DNA of 33,714 nt from a virus: positions 1 through 33,714 of the IMG/VR virus record IMGVR_UViG_3300022752_000226; one strand, given 5' to 3'. Each line of letters begins with the position of its first letter. Position 1 is the stretch's first letter. The notes under the pieces were generated by a model. That model made no database searches and was not told where the DNA came from. It saw only the letters and a program-made list of their open reading frames with translations. Positions 4,982 through 33,534 of this stretch are shown piece by piece. A program made the position numbers and the translations under genes.

Positions 4982-5737
4982 ATGAAAAACAGTGAAAAAT
5001 TAATACAAGAAAAATACAATGGAATTCACCCAACATGCAAATGTGGGTGTAATGAAAAAACAGTTTATGATCCTAGTCGGAGAGATTTCCCTGAATATAA
5101 AAGAGGACATCAAACTCGAGTAATTAAGGATTATTTTGGCGACCCTAAAAATCCAAAACGAGTTGAAAAAATTATATCAACCCGCAAACAAAAGTTTACT
5201 TCTGGGGAGTATGATCATATTAAAAAACAAGTATCTAAACCTAGATCTGAAGAAATTAAAAATAAAATTTCAAAATCAGGTAAAGGTGTATCTAGACCTA
5301 AAAAAGAAGGATTTGGGGTTGGTAGAAAACATTCGAATATAACTAAAGAAAAGATGAGTGATTCTGCTGTACAAAGAATAATAAAGACAGATCAAAACCA
5401 TACATCTAAATTAGAAAAAACTTTTTCTAATATTTTAGAATTATTAGATATAGAATATAAACAATTTTTTTATGCTAAAGATATTAAAGCATTTTACGAT
5501 TTCTACATTCCAAAACATAATATTATTATTGAAGTAGATGGTGATTTTTGGCATTGTAACCCTAACTCTAAACATTCTGTTCCAAAATATAAAACACAAC
5601 AACAAAATTTAATTAAAGATTCTATTAAAACACAATGGGCTGTAGATAAGGGATATAAATTATTCAGATTTTGGGAAGACGATATAAATAACAATATCCA
5701 ATACATAAAACAAATACTATTAGAAAATTGTAAATAA
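4982..5737 (+). CDS. Free-standing homing endonuclease, Vsr-like (EDxHD) with NUMOD3-like repeats
   Basis: A 251-residue site-specific DNA endonuclease of the selfish type that spreads by cutting alleles lacking it. A Cys cluster (C19, C21, C23) near the N-terminus may bind zinc. Two NUMOD3-like DNA-binding repeats follow (about residues 86-103, KPRSEEIKNKISKSGKG, and 113-130, GRKHSNITKEKMSD). The C-terminal ~110 residues form a Vsr-type nuclease: E145 in SKLEKTF, D173 in FYDFYIP, the core IIIEVDGDFWH (E184, D186, D188, H191) and the closing FRFWEDDI segment. These match the EDxHD homing-endonuclease group described for I-Bth0305I. The gene sits immediately behind the tail tube terminator with only 1 nt to the next ORF and no late-promoter motif, consistent with a late-arriving insertion. 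Confidence 0.88.
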   Translation: MKNSEKLIQEKYNGIHPTCKCGCNEKTVYDPSRRDFPEYKRGHQTRVIKDYFGDPKNPKRVEKIISTRKQKFTSGEYDHIKKQVSKPRSEEIKNKISKSGKGVSRPKKEGFGVGRKHSNITKEKMSDSAVQRIIKTDQNHTSKLEKTFSNILELLDIEYKQFFYAKDIKAFYDFYIPKHNIIIEVDGDFWHCNPNSKHSVPKYKTQQQNLIKDSIKTQWAVDKGYKLFRFWEDDINNNIQYIKQILLENCK

Positions 5738-18067: not shown

Positions 18068-18097
18068 TTTGGCTCTTTAAAATTTTTTAGTATATTA
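18068..18097 (+). promoter_or_regulatory. Probable early/middle promoter (TTTGGC-N17-TATATTAG)
   Basis: TTTGGC at 18068-18073 and TATATT at 18091-18096, spacing 17 nt. TTG then 19 nt then TATATTAG fits the Bacteroidota TTTG / TAnnTTTG pattern with one mismatch. It marks the switch from late tail genes to replication genes; the ATG at 18113 is only ~10 nt past the expected transcription start. Confidence 0.62.
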
Positions 18098-18112
18098 GTA
18101 TGAATAAAGGTT

Positions 18113-19408
18113 ATGTATTACATTATAGAAAATCAATCTCAATTCGAAGAATTTGTTTTACAACAAACAGATAGATGTTTTGTTGAATTGATTTTTTGTC
18201 ATAACTTAATTCATCCCATCCTTAATAGTGTTTCTTTAGTATACATTCGACCTGAAAACAGTAAAAAAGGATACATTATACCTATTACTCACAACGAGGC
18301 ATTTTTAGTACCCTTCCAACAAGTAAAAAAATTAATATCGTCTTATAAAGAAGTGTTTGTAAGGGATAAAAAAACATGTATGTACTTTTTAAACAAAAAG
18401 AATTTACAACACGTTTATACTCCTAAAACTGAAGAATTATCATTTCCGATTTATGATTATTATCATAGACAATATCCAAACAGAAATGACATTAATACTT
18501 TTATTCCAATTGCAAAACATTATGAACGTTGTGAAGAATACTTTAATCACATCAAACATGTCTTTACAGAAGAAAAACCAATTTGGTTTGACTTTTACAA
18601 CAAAGCAATAGAATGTTTTCACACCATAGAATCTAATGGTATTCAGGTGAATACAACGCTAATAAACGATTATTTTACTCTAAACAATACCTTACATTCA
18701 ATAAAAAACAATGTAGTATACTCACAGTATAACACTGATACTACAACTAAAAGACCTTCAAACAGGTTTAATGGTATTAATTTTGCAGCGTTGCCCAAAG
18801 ATGGTTCTCGACAAGTATTTGTTTCTACAAATGGAAAATTCATAGACATTGACATTGATTCTTATCATCCAACCCTAATTGCTAAACAAATAGGATATGA
18901 TTTTGGAGACGAATCAATTCACGAACACATGGCTAAACTGTATAATACTGATTATAAAACAAGTAAAGAACTTACTTTTAAACAATTGTACGGAGGCATA
19001 TTCAAAGAGTATAAACATTTAGAATTTTTTGCTAAAACACAAACCTTAATAAACACATTGTGGGAACAGTTTAATGATAAAGGATTTATTAGTTGCCCCA
19101 TTTCTAATTACAGATTTTATAAAAACATGTTAAAAGACATGAATCCACAAAAACTGTTTAATTATTGGGTTCAAAATTTAGAAACGTCTCAAAACATTTT
19201 ATTGTTACAAGACATTTTGCCTATACTAAAAGGATATAAAAGTAAACTTGTATTATACACATATGATGCATTTTTATTTGATTTTGACAAAGACGAATCT
19301 GGTTTATTGGAAAAGATATGTGAAATATTCACATCCAATAACCTAAAATTTAAAATGAAATATGGAAAAAACTATTCTACCCTTAAACCATTCACACCAT
19401 ATGTATGA
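18113..19408 (+). CDS. Short, diverged family A DNA polymerase-like protein with vestigial exonuclease domain
   Basis: A 431-residue protein with the polymerase motifs of family A in order: TKRPSNRF (212-219, cf. TGRLSS), motif A FIDIDIDSYHPTLIA (catalytic Asp = D247 by alignment), motif B KELTFKQLYGG (K285, F289, Y293-G294, the K-x3-F-x3-YG spacing of Pol I), the NYWVQ element (N350, Q354), and motif C YTYDAFLF (D385). The N-terminal ~65 residues keep the fold outline of the Pol I 3'-5' exonuclease domain (NSVSLVYIRP, GYIIPITHNE) but lack its first Asp-x-Glu pair. It is far shorter than Pol I, and the steric-gate Glu of motif A aligns with H252. It may be the phage replicase or a specialised polymerase; neighbours gp32, UvsX, RNase H and helicase support a replication role. 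Confidence 0.75.
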   Translation: MYYIIENQSQFEEFVLQQTDRCFVELIFCHNLIHPILNSVSLVYIRPENSKKGYIIPITHNEAFLVPFQQVKKLISSYKEVFVRDKKTCMYFLNKKNLQHVYTPKTEELSFPIYDYYHRQYPNRNDINTFIPIAKHYERCEEYFNHIKHVFTEEKPIWFDFYNKAIECFHTIESNGIQVNTTLINDYFTLNNTLHSIKNNVVYSQYNTDTTTKRPSNRFNGINFAALPKDGSRQVFVSTNGKFIDIDIDSYHPTLIAKQIGYDFGDESIHEHMAKLYNTDYKTSKELTFKQLYGGIFKEYKHLEFFAKTQTLINTLWEQFNDKGFISCPISNYRFYKNMLKDMNPQKLFNYWVQNLETSQNILLLQDILPILKGYKSKLVLYTYDAFLFDFDKDESGLLEKICEIFTSNNLKFKMKYGKNYSTLKPFTPYV

Positions 19409-19841
19409 CAAACCCTGGCTGTTCACTCAGTCAGACTTAAACATTGATGACGTGAGTGGGAATAAACTATTTTGTACATTTTCAGAATTAGAGGATGTTG
19501 ACGATCTTATAGATGACATAAAAAATCAATATGAAGTATTGTATAATAAAATATTTGTTTTACAAGTTAAAAGCAGTAACGAATATGTTTGCACCTATAA
19601 CATAGACTATTCCAACTTAAACGAAATTCCAGAAAACACAATTTTAGTACACCGCAAAAAAGAGACAAACACTCTTTACACAATTAATGCTTTAAACGAA
19701 CTTATTAAAAAATTAAATGGTGGTGTAGTAGATGTGTCTTTTAGGATTAACTGGATGCATTACAGAAACTGTATTTTGTTGACTCAACACAATGAATTAA
19801 AACAATTAAACACAAAAGTGTATAAAATTGTAGAAGTATAA
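19401..19841 (+). CDS. Unknown protein overlapping the polymerase gene
   Basis: I prefer the ATG at 19401 (146 aa), which overlaps the polymerase stop by 8 nt (ATGTATGA); an in-frame ATG at 19362 would add 13 residues and a larger overlap. The protein is acidic at its N-terminus (DVSGNKLFCTFSELEDVDDL) and its C-terminal ~60 residues have a distinctive TNTLYTINALNELIKKLNGG, VSFRINWMHYRNCILLTQ, YKIVEV pattern that suggests a small alpha/beta domain. No catalytic motif is visible. Translational coupling suggests a polymerase accessory or regulatory protein; that is inference. It ends 1 nt before a late-type promoter motif. Confidence 0.7.
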   Translation: MYDKPWLFTQSDLNIDDVSGNKLFCTFSELEDVDDLIDDIKNQYEVLYNKIFVLQVKSSNEYVCTYNIDYSNLNEIPENTILVHRKKETNTLYTINALNELIKKLNGGVVDVSFRINWMHYRNCILLTQHNELKQLNTKVYKIVEV

Positions 19842-19918: not shown

Positions 19919-19949
19919 TTTGGCCGTATTAAAAAAAAGTAGTATATTA
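19919..19949 (+). promoter_or_regulatory. Probable early/middle promoter (TTTGGC-N18-TATATTAA)
   Basis: TTTGGC at 19919-19924, TATATT at 19943-19948, spacing 18 nt; the same class as at 18068 and 29495. It precedes the ssDNA-binding protein ATG by ~30 nt, so the gene has two tandem promoters of different classes. Confidence 0.62.
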
Positions 19950-19977: not shown

Positions 19978-20826
19978 ATGAACATTGAAGCAATTAAACA
20001 AAAACTGAATGCCCTACAATCAACGGGGCAAAAGAAAGAAAAAGTTGATTACTCCAAATACATTTGGAAACCAAAACAAGAAGGTAAATTTCAAATCCGA
20101 ATCGTTCCTTCAGCAATCAACAAAGAAAATCCATTTCAAGAAGTGTATGTACACTATGGAATTTCTAAATTCCCTATTTATGCATTAACAAATTGGAGTG
20201 AAAAAGATCCTATTGTTGAATTTGCTAAACAGCTTCGTAACACAAATGACAAAGAAAACTGGAGATTAGCAAAAAAGCTAGACCCAAAAATGAGAATTTT
20301 TGCTCCTGTAATTGTTCGTGGTGAGGAAGACAAAGGTGTACGTCTTTGGGAATTTGGTAAAGAAATTTATGTTCAACTTTTAGGTATAGCTGAAGATGAA
20401 GATTATGGAGACTTTACAGACATTAATGATGGTCGTGACTTTACAGTTGAAGCTGTAACAGGTGACATTGGTGGTCGTCAAGGCCTTAAATGTTCAATTC
20501 GTGTTAAACCAAAAACATCAGTCTTAAGCACAGACAAAAACAGCATCAAAGTGTGGTTAGAAGAACAACCTAGTATTCTTGAACTTCAAAGAAAAATGAC
20601 ATTTGAAGAAATTAAAAGTGTATTAGAAAAATTCCTAAACCCTGAAGCTGAAGAAGGTGGTGAAGACGTTGACGCTGAAGACGAAACACCAAACGATTTG
20701 CCTTGGAAAGACGATGAAGAATCACCCGCTCCAAAAGCTAAATCAAACTATGCTCTAAAAACACCAGCTGCTAAAACTTCAAAAGCAGACAAGTTTGATG
20801 CATTGTTTGAAGATGACGAAGATTAA
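19978..20826 (+). CDS. Single-stranded DNA-binding protein (T4 gp32-like)
   Basis: A 282-residue protein that coats ssDNA at forks and recombination intermediates. The N-terminus (IEAIKQKLNALQSTGQ) is the basic oligomerisation segment; KVDYSKYIWKPKQEGKFQIRI begins the OB-fold core, with aromatic and basic residues through NWRLAKKLDPKMRIFAPVIV and FGKEIYVQLLGI. Residues ~220-282 form a long acidic tail (GGEDVDAEDE, ending FEDDED), typical of ssDNA-binding proteins that recruit partners. T4 gp32 has a zinc site in its core; here only one Cys is visible (GLKCSI), so the zinc is absent, as in several distant relatives. It is followed by UvsX 19 nt downstream. Two promoter classes and a leader hairpin suggest regulated expression through infection. 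Confidence 0.92.
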   Translation: MNIEAIKQKLNALQSTGQKKEKVDYSKYIWKPKQEGKFQIRIVPSAINKENPFQEVYVHYGISKFPIYALTNWSEKDPIVEFAKQLRNTNDKENWRLAKKLDPKMRIFAPVIVRGEEDKGVRLWEFGKEIYVQLLGIAEDEDYGDFTDINDGRDFTVEAVTGDIGGRQGLKCSIRVKPKTSVLSTDKNSIKVWLEEQPSILELQRKMTFEEIKSVLEKFLNPEAEEGGEDVDAEDETPNDLPWKDDEESPAPKAKSNYALKTPAAKTSKADKFDALFEDDED

Positions 20827-20845: not shown

Positions 20846-21931
20846 ATGGCCAAGAAAAAAGAATCTTTAATGACAGCAGTCTCTGAAGAAATTAAAGCAA
20901 GTTTCGACCTTGATAAATTTAAAGAGAAAAAACTACTTAACAGTACAGTTAAGTTCAAAGAACAAAGATGGATCCCCTTCTCAGAAGCATTACAAGATTC
21001 AACTTCACTTCCAGGCGCAGCCATAGGCCATATTAATCTTTTAAGAGGACACAGTAACACAGGTAAAACAACAGCTTTACTTGAGTTGGCAATTAATGCC
21101 CAGAAAATGGGCATTTTGCCTGTGTTCATTATTACAGAGATGAAATGGTCTTGGGAACATGCTAAACAAATGGGTTTCCAAGTTGAAGACGTTGTTGATA
21201 AAACAACAGGTGAAATTGTAGATTATAAAGGTTTCTTCTTATACACTGACAGAAGTACATTAGGTACTATAGAAGACGTAGCAGAATTTATAGCTGACTT
21301 GTTAGACGAACAAAAGAAAGGTAATTTACCATATGACTTGTGTTTCTTTTGGGACTCAATAGGTTCTATACCTTGTAAAATGAGTGTTGAAGCAAACAAA
21401 AACAACCCAATGTGGAATGCAGGAGCAATGTCCCAGCAATTTGGAAATTTTGTTAATCAACGTTTTCCATTATCACGCAAAGAAAGTTCACCATACACCA
21501 ATTCTATGGTAGCAATTAATAAAATTTGGATTGCACCTGCTGAAAACATATTTTCACAACCCAAAATGAAAATGAAAAATGGTGAGACAATGTTTTTAGA
21601 TGCATCTATTGTTCTTACATTTGGTAACATTACCAATAGTGGAACAAGTAAATTAAAAGCAACTAAGGATGGTAAAGAAGTAGAATTTGCGGTTCGTACT
21701 AAAGTGGCAGTAGACAAAAACCACGTTACAGGTTTACAAACCAAAAGTACAGTTGTAGCAACAGTTCATGGTTTCATCAGTGACGATACTAAAGGAGTAA
21801 CTGAGTATAAAAAACAACATGCTCACGAATGGATACACATTTTAGGAAGCCTTGACGGTATTGGTCTTACTGAAGACAAATCAGAATGGGAAGAAAGCAA
21901 AGAAAACATTACCTTAATAGACGAAGAATAA
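20846..21931 (+). CDS. uvsX: Recombinase UvsX/RecA-like
   Basis: A 361-residue strand-exchange ATPase that pairs homologous DNA for recombination-dependent replication. The Walker A motif is GHSNTGKT at residues 68-75, preceded by the strand HINLLR. The Walker B-like segment LCFFWDSIGSIPCK lies around residues 166-179. A conserved MSQQFGNFVNQRFPLSRKE region and the AINKIWIAP stretch correspond to the L1/L2 area of UvsX proteins. The length is near T4 UvsX (391 aa). Position between the gp32-like and exonuclease genes matches a recombination-replication operon. Only 1 nt separates its stop from the next start. Confidence 0.93.
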   Translation: MAKKKESLMTAVSEEIKASFDLDKFKEKKLLNSTVKFKEQRWIPFSEALQDSTSLPGAAIGHINLLRGHSNTGKTTALLELAINAQKMGILPVFIITEMKWSWEHAKQMGFQVEDVVDKTTGEIVDYKGFFLYTDRSTLGTIEDVAEFIADLLDEQKKGNLPYDLCFFWDSIGSIPCKMSVEANKNNPMWNAGAMSQQFGNFVNQRFPLSRKESSPYTNSMVAINKIWIAPAENIFSQPKMKMKNGETMFLDASIVLTFGNITNSGTSKLKATKDGKEVEFAVRTKVAVDKNHVTGLQTKSTVVATVHGFISDDTKGVTEYKKQHAHEWIHILGSLDGIGLTEDKSEWEESKENITLIDEE

Positions 21932-21932
21932 C

Positions 21933-22976
21933 ATGGACAAAAAAGAACTGTTTAACCTATTAAACAGTATTGAACCAGGCAATGAACCTAAAAAAGCAAC
22001 ATTTAATAAACATGATAGAGTTCTTATCATTGATGGTTTAAATTTGTTTTTAAGAAACTTTGCTGTTATAAACCATGTTAACAAAGATGGAGTACACGTT
22101 GGTGGTTTAGGAGGATTCTTACGTTCGTTAAGTTTTCTTATAAACCACAACACTCCAACTTCTGTGTACATTGTATTTGATGGAGTTGGTTCTACTATAA
22201 ACAGGAAGAACCTTCTCCCCGAATACAAATCTGGTCGTAATCTTTCTAGGGTTAATCGAAGTACTACGTTTGATAATTTAGAAGAAGAAAATGAATCTAA
22301 AATTAATCAAATTTCAAGACTAATACATTATTTAAGGTGTTTACCCATTAAACTTATTGTACTCGATAAAGTTGAGGCAGACGACATTATAGCTTATTTA
22401 TCCCACTATTTAACCACTAATCACAACAGTAAATGCACTATAGTGTCTGCGGATAAGGACTTTTTACAACTAGTAAATGATAATATTACTGTTTACAGTC
22501 CTATGATTAAAGAACACTTTACTCCAAAATTAATAAAAGAAAAATTTGGCCTTCCTGCTAAAAATTTTATATTGTATAAGACACTTATGGGAGACAATTC
22601 AGATAAAGTACCAGGATTAAAAGGTTTAGGCCCTAAAAAGCTATTTAAATTTTTCCCTGAATTGCAAAACAATGAAATGTCATTAGAGGATTTGTATAAC
22701 ATTTGTGAGACTAAGTATAAAGAAAACATAATATACTCTAGACTAATATATGATTATGAAACGTTACAAAAACATTATAAATTAATGGATTTGAGTAACC
22801 CATTAGTAGACGAAAGTGAGAAAAAAATTATAGAAGAATCAACATCTGTTTCACCAAACAAATTAAAAACCTCAGAATTTTTAAAAATGTATAATGAAGA
22901 CGGATTAGGACACACTATAAAAAATATAGAATTTTGGATTAGAGACACATTTACAACATTAAGTAGTTTTAAATAA
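21933..22976 (+). CDS. 5'-3' exonuclease / flap endonuclease (T4 RNase H-like)
   Basis: A 347-residue metal-dependent nuclease of the FEN family that removes RNA primers from lagging-strand fragments. Visible acidic metal ligands: D34 in LIIDGLN, D83 in VYIVFDG, E148/D150/D151 in VEADDIIAYL, D174/D176 in IVSADKDFLQL, and D221/D224 in MGDNSDKVPG. The GLKGLGPKKL helix-turn-helix (H2TH) after residue 228 binds DNA. An arch segment (NRKNLLPEYKSGRN, ~90-103) carries the basic residues seen in T4 RNase H (305 aa). It is encoded between UvsX and the replicative helicase, in the same transcript. Confidence 0.92.
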   Translation: MDKKELFNLLNSIEPGNEPKKATFNKHDRVLIIDGLNLFLRNFAVINHVNKDGVHVGGLGGFLRSLSFLINHNTPTSVYIVFDGVGSTINRKNLLPEYKSGRNLSRVNRSTTFDNLEEENESKINQISRLIHYLRCLPIKLIVLDKVEADDIIAYLSHYLTTNHNSKCTIVSADKDFLQLVNDNITVYSPMIKEHFTPKLIKEKFGLPAKNFILYKTLMGDNSDKVPGLKGLGPKKLFKFFPELQNNEMSLEDLYNICETKYKENIIYSRLIYDYETLQKHYKLMDLSNPLVDESEKKIIEESTSVSPNKLKTSEFLKMYNEDGLGHTIKNIEFWIRDTFTTLSSFK

Positions 22977-22987
22977 ATAAAAGGTAT

Positions 22988-24355
22988 ATGGCAGCATTAA
23001 GTACCCTGTCCCAATATGGAACACACTTCCAGATTAAAGTATTGTCTTCTTTATTAACACATAAAGAATTTTTAACTAACATACACGACATATTAAGTGA
23101 AGAATACTTCGACAACAGTGCACATCGCTGGATTATTAAAGAAATTCTTAACTATTATGACAAGTACCACACTTGTCCTAGCATGGAAGTGTTAAAAGTA
23201 GAAGTTAAAAAACTAGAAAACGAAGTATTACAAATTTCAGTTAAAGAACAACTTAAAGAAGCATATAAAGCATCAGACGATGATTTAGCATATGTAGAAG
23301 AAGAATTCTCTAATTTTTGTAAAAACCAACAGCTTAAAAAAGCATTACTCACATCTGTAGACTTGTTAAAAGCAGGTGACTATGATTCGATTAGAGGATT
23401 AGTTGACAATGCTTTAAAAGCAGGCGGTGATAAAAACATAGGTTTAGAATACGATAAAGACATTGAAACCCGATACAGAGAAGAACATAGAATTACTATA
23501 CCTACACCTTGGGCATTGTTTAACAACATAATGCAAGGTGGTTTAGGAAATGGAGACTTTGGACTAATATTTGGTAATCCAGGTGGTGGTAAATCATGGA
23601 CATTAATTGCTTTAGGAGGCACAGCGGTTCAGATGGGTTTTAATGTTATTCATTATACTCTTGAATTAGGAGAAGATTATGTTGGTAGACGATATGATGC
23701 TTTTTTTACTGGTGTACCTGTAAATGAAATTATGAAATTCAAACCTAGAGTAGAAGACACTATTACTCAATTGTCAGGTAAATTAGTTGTTAAAGAATAC
23801 TCACCTGGTAAAGCATCTATTTCAACACTAGAAGCACACGTTCAAAAATGTATAGATCAAGGCTTTAAACCAGATTTGATCATTATTGACTACGTAGATC
23901 TTCTTCGTTCTAAAAAAACAAATCGTGAAAGGAAAGACGAAATAGATGATATTTATGTAAGCACAAAAGGATTGGCTCGTGAATTAAAAATTCCAATTTG
24001 GAGTGTTTCACAGGTTAATCGTGCTGGAGCAAAAGATGACATAATTGAGGGTGACAAAGCCGCAGGTAGCTATGACAAAATCATGATTACAGATGTGGCT
24101 ATTTCTCTCTCACGTAAAAAAGAAGATAAAGTGAAAGGAACAGGACGTTTTCATATAATGAAAAATAGATACGGCATAGATGGTTTAACATTTGGAGCCA
24201 AAATTGACACATCTACAGGTCATATGGAAATTTTTGACAATTATGATGACGATCCAGACCAATATACTCCTTCAAAACCAGTCAATAGTTTTAGTGATGT
24301 TACCTCTTTAGACAGAGATCTTCTTCAACAAAAGTTTTTTGAATTAAACAAATAA
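22988..24355 (+). CDS. Replicative DNA helicase, DnaB-type (T4 gp41-like)
   Basis: A 455-residue hexameric 5'-3' helicase that unwinds the fork. The N-terminal ~150 residues are an all-helical domain (FQIKVLSSLLTHKEFLTNIH) that in this family contacts primase. The RecA-like core has Walker A GNPGGGKS at 196-203, preceded by LGNGDFGLIFG; Walker B PDLIIIDYVDLLRS near residues 297-310; and a SVSQVNRAGAKD segment with the conserved Gln (H3-like) around 340. The length matches T4 gp41 (475 aa). No primase gene (gp61-like) was seen in this window. Confidence 0.93.
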   Translation: MAALSTLSQYGTHFQIKVLSSLLTHKEFLTNIHDILSEEYFDNSAHRWIIKEILNYYDKYHTCPSMEVLKVEVKKLENEVLQISVKEQLKEAYKASDDDLAYVEEEFSNFCKNQQLKKALLTSVDLLKAGDYDSIRGLVDNALKAGGDKNIGLEYDKDIETRYREEHRITIPTPWALFNNIMQGGLGNGDFGLIFGNPGGGKSWTLIALGGTAVQMGFNVIHYTLELGEDYVGRRYDAFFTGVPVNEIMKFKPRVEDTITQLSGKLVVKEYSPGKASISTLEAHVQKCIDQGFKPDLIIIDYVDLLRSKKTNRERKDEIDDIYVSTKGLARELKIPIWSVSQVNRAGAKDDIIEGDKAAGSYDKIMITDVAISLSRKKEDKVKGTGRFHIMKNRYGIDGLTFGAKIDTSTGHMEIFDNYDDDPDQYTPSKPVNSFSDVTSLDRDLLQQKFFELNK

Positions 24356-28511: not shown

Positions 28512-29492
28512 ATGAAACAAAAAGTATTCCCATTCTTAATAGCATTGTCAGCACTAGCCGTTAGCGGTAGTGCTGCTTTCTATTCTATAACAGGTTTATC
28601 TAAATTATTTGCTGGGGCAAGTACCGAAGTGATTATTATGGCTTCTAGTTTAGAAGCAGCCAAATTAGTAATGGCTTCTTTGCTCTACCAATATTGGGAT
28701 AAATTAAACAAATTATTAAGAACATATTTAACAATTGCTTTAATAATACTAATAGGTATTACTTCTGCTGGTATTTATGGATTCTTAAGCGGAGCATACC
28801 AAGACACTGCCAACAAAGCATCAGTTGTAGATAAAGAAACCCAAGTGTATAAAGTTAAAAAGGAACGTTTTGAACAAACCAAAGCTGACTATACAACTGA
28901 AAAACAAAGATTAGACAACGATATTAGTCAATTACGAAATGCTTTAGCAACAGGTAGTACTACTCAATCTGTAGACCAAAAAACAGGCCAATTAGTTACT
29001 AAAGCAAACAATGCTAATAGAAAAACATTTGAAGCACAACTAAACAGTGCTTTACAAAACAAAGAAACAATTGATACTAAAATTGTAGCGGCAAATGACA
29101 GTATAACTGCTTTAGACATGAAAATACTAGAAATTGAATCTAAAGCTGAATTAGCCGGAGAATTGGGACCACTCAAATACTTAAGTAAACTTACAGGTAA
29201 ACCTATGGACCAAATTATAAACTGGTTTTTACTTGTAATCATATTTGTATTTGATCCTTTAGCTATTAGTTTAGTAATAGCAGCAAATTTTGCTTTTAAC
29301 AGACTAAAACCAACACCTAAAGACGAACCAGTTAAAGACGAACCAGTTAAAGAATATCAAATTTACCAACAACCGGAACCTGAACCGCAACCCGTCCCTC
29401 AGGAACCATACGTGTTTCCTTCCGCCCCGTTGATTCAAAAAATTCAACAGGAAAAAAAAGATGATGACGATACTATAATAAAGTATACTTAA
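28512..29492 (+). CDS. Membrane protein with periplasmic/cytoplasmic coiled coil
   Basis: A 326-residue protein with four hydrophobic segments at about residues 5-26, 38-61, 71-94 and 236-263. Between the third and fourth lies a ~140-residue loop with two coiled-coil stretches (~108-146 and ~172-213). The tail (265-326) is Pro/Glu-rich and ends with an acidic-basic patch (EKKDDDDTIIKYT). The motif EAAKLVMASLLYQYWDKL and the GIYGFLSGAYQDTA after TM3 recall a membrane-protein family common in aquatic T4-like phages. An even number of membrane helices puts both termini on the same side. It might act in superinfection exclusion or membrane attachment of replication; this is inference only. Confidence 0.75.
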   Translation: MKQKVFPFLIALSALAVSGSAAFYSITGLSKLFAGASTEVIIMASSLEAAKLVMASLLYQYWDKLNKLLRTYLTIALIILIGITSAGIYGFLSGAYQDTANKASVVDKETQVYKVKKERFEQTKADYTTEKQRLDNDISQLRNALATGSTTQSVDQKTGQLVTKANNANRKTFEAQLNSALQNKETIDTKIVAANDSITALDMKILEIESKAELAGELGPLKYLSKLTGKPMDQIINWFLLVIIFVFDPLAISLVIAANFAFNRLKPTPKDEPVKDEPVKEYQIYQQPEPEPQPVPQEPYVFPSAPLIQKIQQEKKDDDDTIIKYT

Positions 29493-30390: not shown

Positions 30391-31176
30391 ATGAAAGTAT
30401 CCCACGAAGTTCCCTTATGTGCTTTAGAATGGTCAAAAGATTTTAATGACTATGATTATTGTTTGCCCCACTTATTAGACAAATACCCTCAATACGAGAA
30501 GTATTTTAGATGGGCTAAAGAAAACAATCGATACATTATAATGGATAATTCACTACATGAATTAGGTCATGCTTATGATACTGATCGTTTAATGTACTGG
30601 ATAAATGAATTACAACCAAACGAATTTATTGTCCCTGATGTGTGGGAAGACATGGAAGCATCAATCAAAAATGCAGCTAAATGGGCTAACACTACACTCC
30701 CACATAATGTTCTTAAAGTAGCTGTAGTACAAGCCAAAGATATAGTAGAAGCACATATATGTTATTTTAAGTATAAATCATTAAGGTACAACAAAATAGC
30801 ATTCTCATATGGTGCTTCTTATTATAAACAACTATTCCCTCACCCATCTCCAGACATTGCTACAGCAATGGGACGAGTATATGTTGTAAGTAAATTATAT
30901 AAAGAAGGTGTTATTAAAGAAACTGATAACATTCATTTATTAGGATGTGCTGTTCCACAAGAATTTATGTATTATAAAGACATGCCTTTTGTTACAACAA
31001 TTGATACATCAAATCCTATAATGGCCGCTATTGAAAACATAAGATATAATGAGTGGGGTTTAGATAAAAAACCTAAAACCAAAATTGACGAAGTGATGGA
31101 AGCCGATTTAGAAAAACCACAATTAGCAAAAATAATTTTTAATACTAAACAATTTAGAATAATAAATGGAATATAA
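30391..31176 (+). CDS. Putative 7-deazaguanine DNA transglycosylase (small TGT/DpdA-like TIM barrel)
   Basis: A 261-residue protein whose motif order follows the tRNA-guanine transglycosylase superfamily. YIIMDNSLHELG (D52) sits where TGT has its MDSGGF Asp; EFIVPDVWED (D83) matches the PDV-type substrate strand; KIAFSYGASYY follows; HLLGCAVPQEF (182-192) corresponds to HLLGxGxP; and FVTTIDTSNPIMAAI (D205) aligns with the FDSVxPTRxAR segment holding the nucleophilic Asp. No tRNA-recognition PUA domain or Cys-rich zinc site is present, so tRNA is unlikely as substrate. Phage DpdA enzymes swap guanine in DNA for preQ0 or derivatives. QueC, QueD and QueE encoded within the next 3 kb would supply preQ0. 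The function is inferred from motifs plus neighbours; an unrelated TIM-barrel enzyme remains possible. Confidence 0.6.
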   Translation: MKVSHEVPLCALEWSKDFNDYDYCLPHLLDKYPQYEKYFRWAKENNRYIIMDNSLHELGHAYDTDRLMYWINELQPNEFIVPDVWEDMEASIKNAAKWANTTLPHNVLKVAVVQAKDIVEAHICYFKYKSLRYNKIAFSYGASYYKQLFPHPSPDIATAMGRVYVVSKLYKEGVIKETDNIHLLGCAVPQEFMYYKDMPFVTTIDTSNPIMAAIENIRYNEWGLDKKPKTKIDEVMEADLEKPQLAKIIFNTKQFRIINGI

Positions 31177-31391: not shown

Positions 31392-32279
31392 ATGAACAAA
31401 AAACAAGCAGTGCTTAGTCTATCTGGTGGAATGGATTCAAGTACATTATTATTACATTTATTAGCTAACGGGTATGAGGTTTGTGCCCTTTCTTTTGATT
31501 ATGGACAAAAACATAATGTTGAATTAGAATGTGCTAAAGATTTAGTTAAATACATTAACACCTATCCACTCCGTTTATTTCCTCATGATCGAGCACCTGG
31601 TGGATTTGAAGAAATTTATCCATTAGTAAAACACCAAGTAATTAAACTTGACGGATTATCACAATTACTCAATTCAGCATTGGTGCAAGGTGGAAAAGAA
31701 GTACCTGAAGGACACTATGCTGAAGAAAATATGAAAGCAACAGTAGTACCTAATCGTAATAAGATTTTTAGTTCAATTATTCAAGCAGTTGCATTATCAG
31801 TTGCTGAACAAAAGAACACAGAATGTGCCATTGCAATGGGAATACATGCTGGTGATTTTAGCGTTTACCCAGATTGTAGACAAGAGTTTAGAGACATTGA
31901 TTTTGAAGCGTTTAAAGCAGGTAACTGGGGTGCTGAAAAAGTATACTATTACACACCGTATATCCAAGTTATGAAAGGAGATATTTTAAAAGATGGATTA
32001 ACATGTTGTAATACATTAGGTTTAGATTTTGATGAAGTGTATAAGCGTACTAACACCTCATACAAACCAATTTATTGGACTTGGCAAGATGTAAACGATG
32101 AATTTAGAAGCAAATGGTATTCAGATTACAAGTCAGCATCATCTGTAGAACGTATTGAAGCATTTATGAAACTAGGAAAACAAGATCCAGTTGAGTATGC
32201 AGATGAAGAAGGCCCTACAACTTGGAAAGTAGTAACAAATCATGTACAACAAATATTAAAAAATCATGCCAACATCTAA
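31392..32279 (+). CDS. queC: 7-cyano-7-deazaguanine (preQ0) synthase QueC, zinc-site variant
   Basis: A 295-residue PP-loop ATPase that converts 7-carboxy-7-deazaguanine plus ammonia to preQ0. The ATP-binding loop is intact (LSLSGGMDSSTLL, residues 8-20), followed by SFDYGQKHNVELECA, VPNRNKIF (119-126) and the family motif GDFSVYPDCRQEF (154-166). The C-terminal region aligns with the QueC zinc site (SCY ... CGxCxSCxxRxxAF) but reads TSY ... DYKSASSVERIEAF: the four Cys become S223, D245, S248 and S251 while the flanking R254, A257-F258 and DPVEY are kept. At ~295 aa it is longer than bacterial QueC (~220-230) because of an insertion around residues 60-115. Its last 14 nt overlap the next gene. 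Confidence 0.9.
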   Translation: MNKKQAVLSLSGGMDSSTLLLHLLANGYEVCALSFDYGQKHNVELECAKDLVKYINTYPLRLFPHDRAPGGFEEIYPLVKHQVIKLDGLSQLLNSALVQGGKEVPEGHYAEENMKATVVPNRNKIFSSIIQAVALSVAEQKNTECAIAMGIHAGDFSVYPDCRQEFRDIDFEAFKAGNWGAEKVYYYTPYIQVMKGDILKDGLTCCNTLGLDFDEVYKRTNTSYKPIYWTWQDVNDEFRSKWYSDYKSASSVERIEAFMKLGKQDPVEYADEEGPTTWKVVTNHVQQILKNHANI

Positions 32280-32823: not shown

Positions 32824-33076
32824 ATTTAGTAAACAATGGGCTGAAAAAAATGATCCCGAAATGCCCTGGGATTTTGACATTTTAGAAATTGCAGATACTC
32901 TTGAACCTAATTATTATTCTTCGTACATTTGTGAAGGTTATGGTTTTATTGCCATAGCTAAAGACGGAAATGGAGACATTATGTTAGGAATACCTACAGG
33001 TACATCTAATTTTAATGAAGACGGAACATATGTTGATGAAGTAAATTGGAAATCTTTTGACGAAGTAATAATATGA
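32816..33076 (+). CDS. Small acidic protein of unknown function
   Basis: An 86-residue acidic protein overlapping the thioredoxin gene by 8 nt and queD by 4 nt (ATGA). Sequence features: MPWDFDILEIADTLEPNYY, SYICEGYGFIAIAKDGNG and a Ser/Asn/Glu-rich end. The WDFDI...LEPxYY...ICEGxGF order seems conserved among T4-related phages from memory. No active-site motif. It is translated within the thioredoxin-queD operon. Confidence 0.7.
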   Translation: MAEFSKQWAEKNDPEMPWDFDILEIADTLEPNYYSSYICEGYGFIAIAKDGNGDIMLGIPTGTSNFNEDGTYVDEVNWKSFDEVII

Positions 33077-33534
33077 GTTTTAAATCAACAAAATTATTTG
33101 ACGGATACTCAACTTGTTTTCGTCAATGGAAAGCAGACGATACGCATTGTAAATTTTTACATGGCTACGCTATTTCATTTAGAGTATGGTTTGAAGGTGA
33201 ATTAGACGAACGTAATTGGGTTTGGGACTTTGGAGGCATGAAACGTGCTAAAACCCAAATTAATCATATGTCACCAAAAGATTTTTTTACTTGGTTACTT
33301 GACCATACTACAATTATAGCGCAAGATGATCCACATTTAGAAACTTTTAGACAACTGAATAAAGATGGTATTATACAATTAAGAGTACTACCAGCAACTG
33401 GTTGTGAACAATTTGCAAAGTATTTATACAATACTATTAATACTTTCTTAGTAGAAGAAACAAATGGTCGAGTTAAAGTATCAAAATTAGAAGTTTATGA
33501 AAACGAACGAAACAGTGCCAGTTACGGAGAGTAA
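33073..33534 (+). CDS. queD: 6-carboxytetrahydropterin synthase QueD-like (PTPS family), variant metal site
   Basis: A 153-residue member of the PTPS/QueD family; QueD turns dihydroneopterin triphosphate into 6-carboxytetrahydropterin, the first dedicated step to preQ0. Family features: C26 (catalytic-Cys position) followed by FLHGY (H30), a VWDFGGMK strand (51-57), LLDHTTII (76-82) and a late VLPATGCEQFAKYLY helix with E112. The usual zinc triad is H in the N-terminal FxAAH plus H-x-H of LHGHxY; here the first is replaced by a STCFRQW segment and the last by Tyr (LHGY). Phage and bacterial relatives with CFRQW...HCxFLHGY exist from memory, so this is a recognised subtype rather than decay. 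It ends 57 nt before the queE start. Confidence 0.87.
   Translation: MSFKSTKLFDGYSTCFRQWKADDTHCKFLHGYAISFRVWFEGELDERNWVWDFGGMKRAKTQINHMSPKDFFTWLLDHTTIIAQDDPHLETFRQLNKDGIIQLRVLPATGCEQFAKYLYNTINTFLVEETNGRVKVSKLEVYENERNSASYGE

Follow-up and report, generated by a model that had tools for sequence, protein, structure and literature searches.

Bacteriophage T4 copies its DNA with gp43, a family B replicase, and with gp32, UvsX, a 5′ nuclease, and gp41 as functional partners. Family A enzymes are also found in phages. The polymerase of Thermus phage Tt72 has 703 aa, a full thumb, strong proofreading, and Glu at its steric gate (PMC9324360), and the proposed TV-Pols are stand-alone minimal superfamily A polymerases of 400 to 600 aa, found in phages and mobile elements, with a two-helix thumb, an RxxxK motif, and D5-like helicases or recombinases, never nucleases, as partners (PMC2579912). 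Among the known systems closest to the locus described here is gp001 of Flavobacterium phage vB_FspM_immuto (Immutovirus), which is labelled 'DNA polymerase family A'. The label is silent on the loss of the thumb, the dead exonuclease, and the status of the protein as a second polymerase, the full-length enzyme of that phage being gp199 (777 aa). We analyzed its orthologue (38.6% identical across 97% of its length), here called sPolA for short family A DNA polymerase, in a 33.7-kb fragment of a phage genome; this whole stretch is referred to as the window.

The sPolA gene occupies positions 18113 to 19408 (+ strand, as for its parts and the genes of its block below) and has an ATG start that agrees with the start in its relatives. 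Its product of 431 aa is 46% of the length of Escherichia coli Pol I (928 aa) and 71% of Klenow (605 aa), compared with 777 aa for the full-length PolA of immuto. Because searches with the single sequence gave no match in Pfam, and none by sequence in the PDB, family profiles were used. Twelve of 48 sPolA relatives match PF00476 (DNA_pol_A; best 7.7e-11), and the family profile aligns with Klenow at E = 8e-8 (hhalign). The AF2 model of sPolA (pLDDT 92.1, pTM 0.90) has Pol I-family enzymes as its best 50 Foldseek matches in the PDB, with E values down to 9e-16 and with apicoplast Pol, theta, nu, Klenow, and Bst among them; query TM scores are about 0.65 to 0.7, with full-length targets mostly at 0.6 to 0.76 and several short targets at 0.42 to 0.47. 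An initial annotation had proposed a family A polymerase of about half the usual length, with structure prediction against Klenow as a check; both the assignment and the check hold up, and the motif residue numbers that it gave are exact. By motif, profile, and predicted fold, sPolA is a genuine, divergent, and minimal family A polymerase that is without the thumb feature.

Conservation was counted in an alignment of 158 sPolA homologues, and residues were paired with Klenow using hhalign (D247 with D705, H252 with E710, K285 with K758, F289 with F762, Y293 with Y766, Q354 with Q849, D385 with D882, and A386 with E883). D247, H252, K285, F289, G294, Y351, Q354, E357, Y382, Y384, and D385 are invariant in all 158, and R214 is kept in 157, so the motifs are not chance. 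R214 (18752 to 18754), equivalent to R668 of Pol I, lies within T-x-R-P-S-N (T212 to N217). Motif A extends from D247 to the steric-gate residue H252 (18851 to 18868), and motif B, the O-helix, is K285-x3-F289-x3-Y293-G294 (18965 to 18994), in which G294 corresponds to G767 and Y293 is kept in 157 homologues. Motif 6 is N350-x3-Q354 (19160 to 19174), with N350 (Pol I N845) kept in 154, and motif C is Y384-D385-A386 (19262 to 19270), with Y384 at the position of H881. The third residue of motif C is Ser in 104 homologues and Ala in 54, giving Y-D-Ser or Y-D-Ala, and the Arg position of RxxxK is Tyr281 in sPolA, with Tyr in 141 of 158 and Arg in three. Motifs A and B are 38 residues apart in most members, as against 53 in Pol I. 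With E. coli Pol I and Klenow, sPolA thus has in common the palm and fingers motifs, the fold, both catalytic Asp residues, and the equivalents of K758, F762, Y766, and Q849. It differs in having His for Glu710, Tyr and Ala/Ser for His881 and Glu883, and Tyr for Arg754, in lacking the thumb coiled coil and the exonuclease Asp-x-Glu, and in that its phages have the 5′ nuclease on a gene of its own.

Two of these substitutions had been singled out as oddities, namely His in place of the ribonucleotide-excluding Glu and YDA in place of HDE. Across the alignment, His at the steric gate is a fixed trait of the sPolA family (158/158). Glu710 keeps ribonucleotides out sterically (PMC9324360), and the bulky His could still exclude rNTPs. 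YDA is indeed present, but it is not alarming: the Tt72 enzyme, which like sPolA follows the motif C Asp with a residue that is not acidic, naturally has Ser at the Glu883 equivalent and retains 76% activity when this is changed to Ala (PMC9324360). Ala at its Glu710 equivalent retains 35% activity, and both catalytic Asp residues are essential, with 4% activity remaining when either is changed (PMC9324360). H252 and A386 are therefore no argument against sPolA activity, and the conservation of the residues for metal-dependent transfer suggests that sPolA is an active polymerase.

A further property of sPolA, absent from the initial annotation, is that its thumb is largely missing. From G176, the conserved Gly in the IExxG helix, to the conserved R214, the thumb stretch spans 38 residues (18638 to 18754), whereas the equivalent stretch of E. 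coli Pol I (G544 to R668) spans 124. It is 32 to 38 residues long in 77 of 78 relatives and 20 in the remaining one, and the AF2 model has no long helices across residues 188 to 204. On these lengths, most of the thumb, about 86 residues, is lost family-wide. The N-terminal domain (about residues 1 to 155; 18113 to 18577) appears to be pseudo-exonuclease-like by its Foldseek comparison and by the order of strands and helices in the AF2 model; this assignment rests on predicted structure, since exonuclease homology is undetectable by sequence profiles. When positions 25 and 27 are matched by eye to D355 and E357, position 25 is Glu in 82 homologues and Asp in five, and position 27 is Ile or Val in 138 of 158, from which we infer that sPolA has no proofreading Asp-x-Glu; the vestigial exonuclease domain that had been suggested is consistent with both the model and these counts. 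The domain also diverges faster than the rest of the protein, with 27.7% identity to immuto versus 44.9% for the polymerase part. A precedent for working without a thumb is provided by Pol X of African swine fever virus (ASFV), a viral repair polymerase that fills gaps without one (PMC5330486), although it belongs to family X, is unrelated to sPolA, and serves as an analogy in this respect only.

The gene order u176 - sPolA - u147 - SSB (gp32 type) - UvsX - FEN - gp41 is present in nearly every locus with enough DNA in two divergent locus sets. In the window, sPolA is followed by u147 (19401 to 19841), a conserved 146-aa orphan whose co-occurrence with sPolA makes it a candidate partner. It follows sPolA in 80 of 83 loci with room in the second set and in nearly all of the first, and it is 50 to 87% identical to its relatives; it has no Pfam match and only weak PHROG matches of unknown function, and its AF2 model (pLDDT 84) has no confident fold match. 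Further downstream are a gp32-type single-strand DNA-binding protein (SSB; 19978 to 20826; PF08804, E = 1e-10; phrog_1192, E = 6e-14), a UvsX-like recombinase (20846 to 21931; phrog_97, E = 1.6e-15), a Pol I-type 5′-3′ exonuclease/flap nuclease (FEN; 21933 to 22976; PF02739, E = 3.8e-33; phrog_107, E = 1.4e-39), and a gp41/DnaB-type replicative helicase (22988 to 24355; phrog_19, E = 1.6e-80; PF03796), the same kind of functional partners as in T4. Because FEN belongs to the family of the Pol I N-terminal nuclease (PF02739), bacterial Pol I has its two catalytic parts represented here by separate proteins of one block. We note that loci of the divergent clade often have one or two extra uncharacterized genes between sPolA and u147, which encode up to 615 aa and are in some cases very acidic or repeat-rich (L148, 9377 to 11717; L191, 9021 to 11342; L008, 13010 to 14412). 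A promoter-like block (TTTGGC...TAGTATATTA; 18068 to 18098, + strand) lies upstream of sPolA, and a similar block at 19919 to 19949 lies upstream of the SSB gene; the pattern built from the two has no match in shuffles, and the two may resemble Bacteroidetes -33/-7 elements.

Homologues of sPolA are present in one isolate group, represented by immuto, in Microcystis phage Mel-JY01, where the label is 'hypothetical protein', and in a 484-kb uncultured phage. Two IMG/VR scans of 600 stretches each returned at least 577 and at least 590 confirmed sPolA relatives, in sets that may overlap. Nine contigs in a genome collection match sPolA, all of them metagenome-assembled or uncultured, with five binned with Flavobacteriales, Flavobacteriaceae, or Winogradskyella; those with flanking sequence bear the phage block, and a cellular origin was rejected. 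The host of the phage is probably a member of the Flavobacteriia. Neither sPolA nor u147 has a match in T4, S-PM2, RM378, or Microcystis phage LMM01, the last being a TV-Pol carrier. RM378 is the cultured reference of the Far-T4 group, which is defined by a tree of the capsid protein Gp23 and whose clade 1 carries queuosine genes (PMC4360716). A link to RM378 was rejected on the lack of any match to sPolA or u147. By its gene content (QueC, QueD, gp32, UvsX, and gp41) the phage resembles the Far-T4 group, itself defined by the capsid tree; the Gp23 gene is not seen in the window. A literature search, mostly outside subscription journals, found no paper on the sPolA family or on a second or thumbless PolA in such phages; the family is common and conserved and seems not to have been studied.

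Immuto shares with the window not only the gene block but also Que genes and, perhaps, a DpdA gene. In the window, QueC is at 31392 to 32279 and QueD at 33073 to 33534, and the 3′ end is the start of a QueE-like frame; the protein at 30391 to 31176 may correspond to immuto gp206 (labelled DpdA, a DNA guanine transglycosylase), a likeness judged by eye, its PHROG match being of unknown function. Together, these genes likely constitute a 7-deazaguanine DNA modification pathway. Between them and the ribonucleotide reductase gene is a 326-aa protein (28512 to 29492, + strand) with several hydrophobic stretches, a long coiled region, and no Pfam match. A free-standing endonuclease-like open reading frame (4982 to 5737, + strand; NUMOD3, DUF559/Vsr-like) directly after the presumed tail tube gene is probably a homing endonuclease.

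No other polymerase was found within the window, but as this is a 33.7-kb fragment, its own replicase lies out of view and the evidence comes from relatives. Every one of the 21 related records that reach 70 kb has a separate full-length polymerase, of family B in 17 and of family A (777 to 796 aa) in four; family B, which had been expected of T4-type phages, is the usual type of replicase in these relatives. Besides sPolA, immuto has its 777-aa family A polymerase; a family B polymerase accompanies sPolA in Mel-JY01, in the 484-kb phage, and in G001 (98.8 kb), the nearest contig. In a further 18 contigs longer than 50 kb, family B was found nine times and full-length family A (frames of 781 to 796 aa) four times, never together, and in the divergent clade ten of 11 contigs have family B and none has full-length family A. 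A 163-kb contig with an sPolA of 77 to 78% identity carries a family B polymerase of 863 aa, and one with an sPolA of 85% identity over 72 residues carries a split family B polymerase. Mapped on the sPolA tree, the replicase type switches three times or more. Since it does so while sPolA stays, sPolA is the constant part and the replicase the exchangeable part, and the presence of a separate replicase in 21 of 21 records, together with these switches, argues that whatever sPolA does is separate from the work of the replicase. It seems that sPolA is carried beside a normal full-length replicase in hundreds of aquatic T4-like phages. Some family B genes in relatives appear split or interrupted, with frames of 584 and 302 aa in G001 (L018, L019; 75255 to 77814) and in-frame stops in G012 (L107) and G016 (L108), perhaps through introns, inteins, or homing genes. 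A search of the relatives for a T4-type sliding clamp (PF02916) gave none above the cut-off, with the T4 positive control found, although divergent clamps could escape it.

We propose that sPolA is a second, accessory family A polymerase for distributive gap filling, Okazaki maturation, and/or recombination-linked synthesis, and put the probability of this reading at roughly 55%. sPolA would be the polymerase half of Pol I, parted from its 5′ nuclease half (FEN), and would make short, distributive, non-proofreading stretches of DNA, filling gaps after the neighboring 5′ nuclease takes off RNA primers or flaps, and/or lengthening 3′ ends that UvsX has paired in recombination intermediates. Given the full-length replicase in these phages, sPolA probably serves gap filling or repair as a dedicated enzyme and is not the main copier. 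With no thumb to grip the duplex, it probably needs help staying on DNA, and may be held there by the gapped substrate or by partner proteins, for which SSB and the neighboring u147 are candidates. The invariant catalytic residues, the predicted family A fold, the separate replicase, the kept gene order, the Pol I-type FEN, and the family-wide thumb loss speak for this reading, as do the Tt72 mutants and, as a precedent, ASFV Pol X. What counts against it is that most members have Tyr281 in place of Pol I R754, the residue that touches the incoming triphosphate. Moreover, T4 manages Okazaki maturation with its replicase, and a second polymerase is thus dispensable in principle. The gene neighborhood alone fits gap filling, D-loop extension, and lesion bypass alike.

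Lesion bypass is the main rival to gap filling or recombination-linked synthesis, and is possible although doubtful. Here, the reduced thumb, absent proofreading, and altered steric gate would let the enzyme copy damaged templates, as might arise in sunlit surface waters. In favor are the reduced thumb and the lack of functional exonuclease residues, the recombination and repair genes around it, and the presence of theta and nu, which are bypass enzymes of family A, among its best Foldseek matches. However, sPolA has no insertion loops of the theta/nu kind, its fingers are shorter and not enlarged, and it is kept as a core gene family-wide in a context without a specific pointer to damage tolerance. 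We regard as unlikely a separate class of two-part polymerase in which a thumbless core with an obligatory His has its thumb supplied in trans by u147, a little in the way that thioredoxin completes T7 polymerase, and which would be devoted to lengthening 3′ ends paired by UvsX while replication is left to a family A or B enzyme that can be exchanged.

It is improbable that sPolA is a pseudo-polymerase, a noncatalytic scaffold that binds primer-template or proteins of replication. The loss of the thumb, the exonuclease, and the R754 equivalent would fit, as would the neutral third residue of motif C, but a scaffold would need none of D247 and D385 (158/158), K285, F289, or Q354. As for a relic or pseudogene, the invariant catalytic residues rule it out; the initial annotation had envisaged a non-replicative relic should a family B polymerase turn up elsewhere and polymerase activity be lacking, and although such a polymerase is found in relatives, these residues are intact in all 158 homologues.

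We give little credence to a primase-polymerase of the kind proposed for TV-Pols, which would start chains for the adjacent gp41 helicase with a His gate that admits ribonucleotides. sPolA is, like them, a stand-alone minimal superfamily A enzyme in a phage; it shares a block with a replicative helicase, and Glu at its ribonucleotide gate is replaced. Nonetheless, a primer-making role, which the initial annotation had also raised, is unlikely to be needed, as immuto and seven of 15 related records tested, eight in all and including most of the largest (carriers include G002, G005, G026, G027, Mel-JY01, and the 484-kb phage), have a separate gene for a DnaG-type primase, and the bulky His may keep rNTPs out. 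Nor does sPolA belong to the TV-Pols as they were described: it has neither their thumb coiled coil of two helices nor RxxxK, and in place of a D5-like helicase or a resolvase/integrase without a nuclease it adjoins UvsX, FEN, and DnaB-type gp41, whereas TV-Pols are never linked to a nuclease gene (PMC2579912). That sPolA is the main replicase, with an exonuclease from elsewhere, is scarcely credible even though it heads the replication block and is the one polymerase found in the window, since a family B polymerase is present in its closest relatives (full-length, with 863 aa, in the 163-kb contig, and split in another) and a separate replicase in each of the 21 long related records, which also disposes of the earlier suggestion of a minimal replicase.

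If sPolA is an accessory polymerase as proposed, a common group of aquatic T4-like phages may carry two DNA polymerases as a rule, an exchangeable replicase and a constant, stripped-down relative of Pol I that is tied to recombination and flap-nuclease genes. An active sPolA would represent a family A polymerase that is thumbless by nature. Its small size and the availability of a cultured phage, immuto, would then make it possible to test directly how little the family A fold requires and whether T4-like replication needs a second polymerase.
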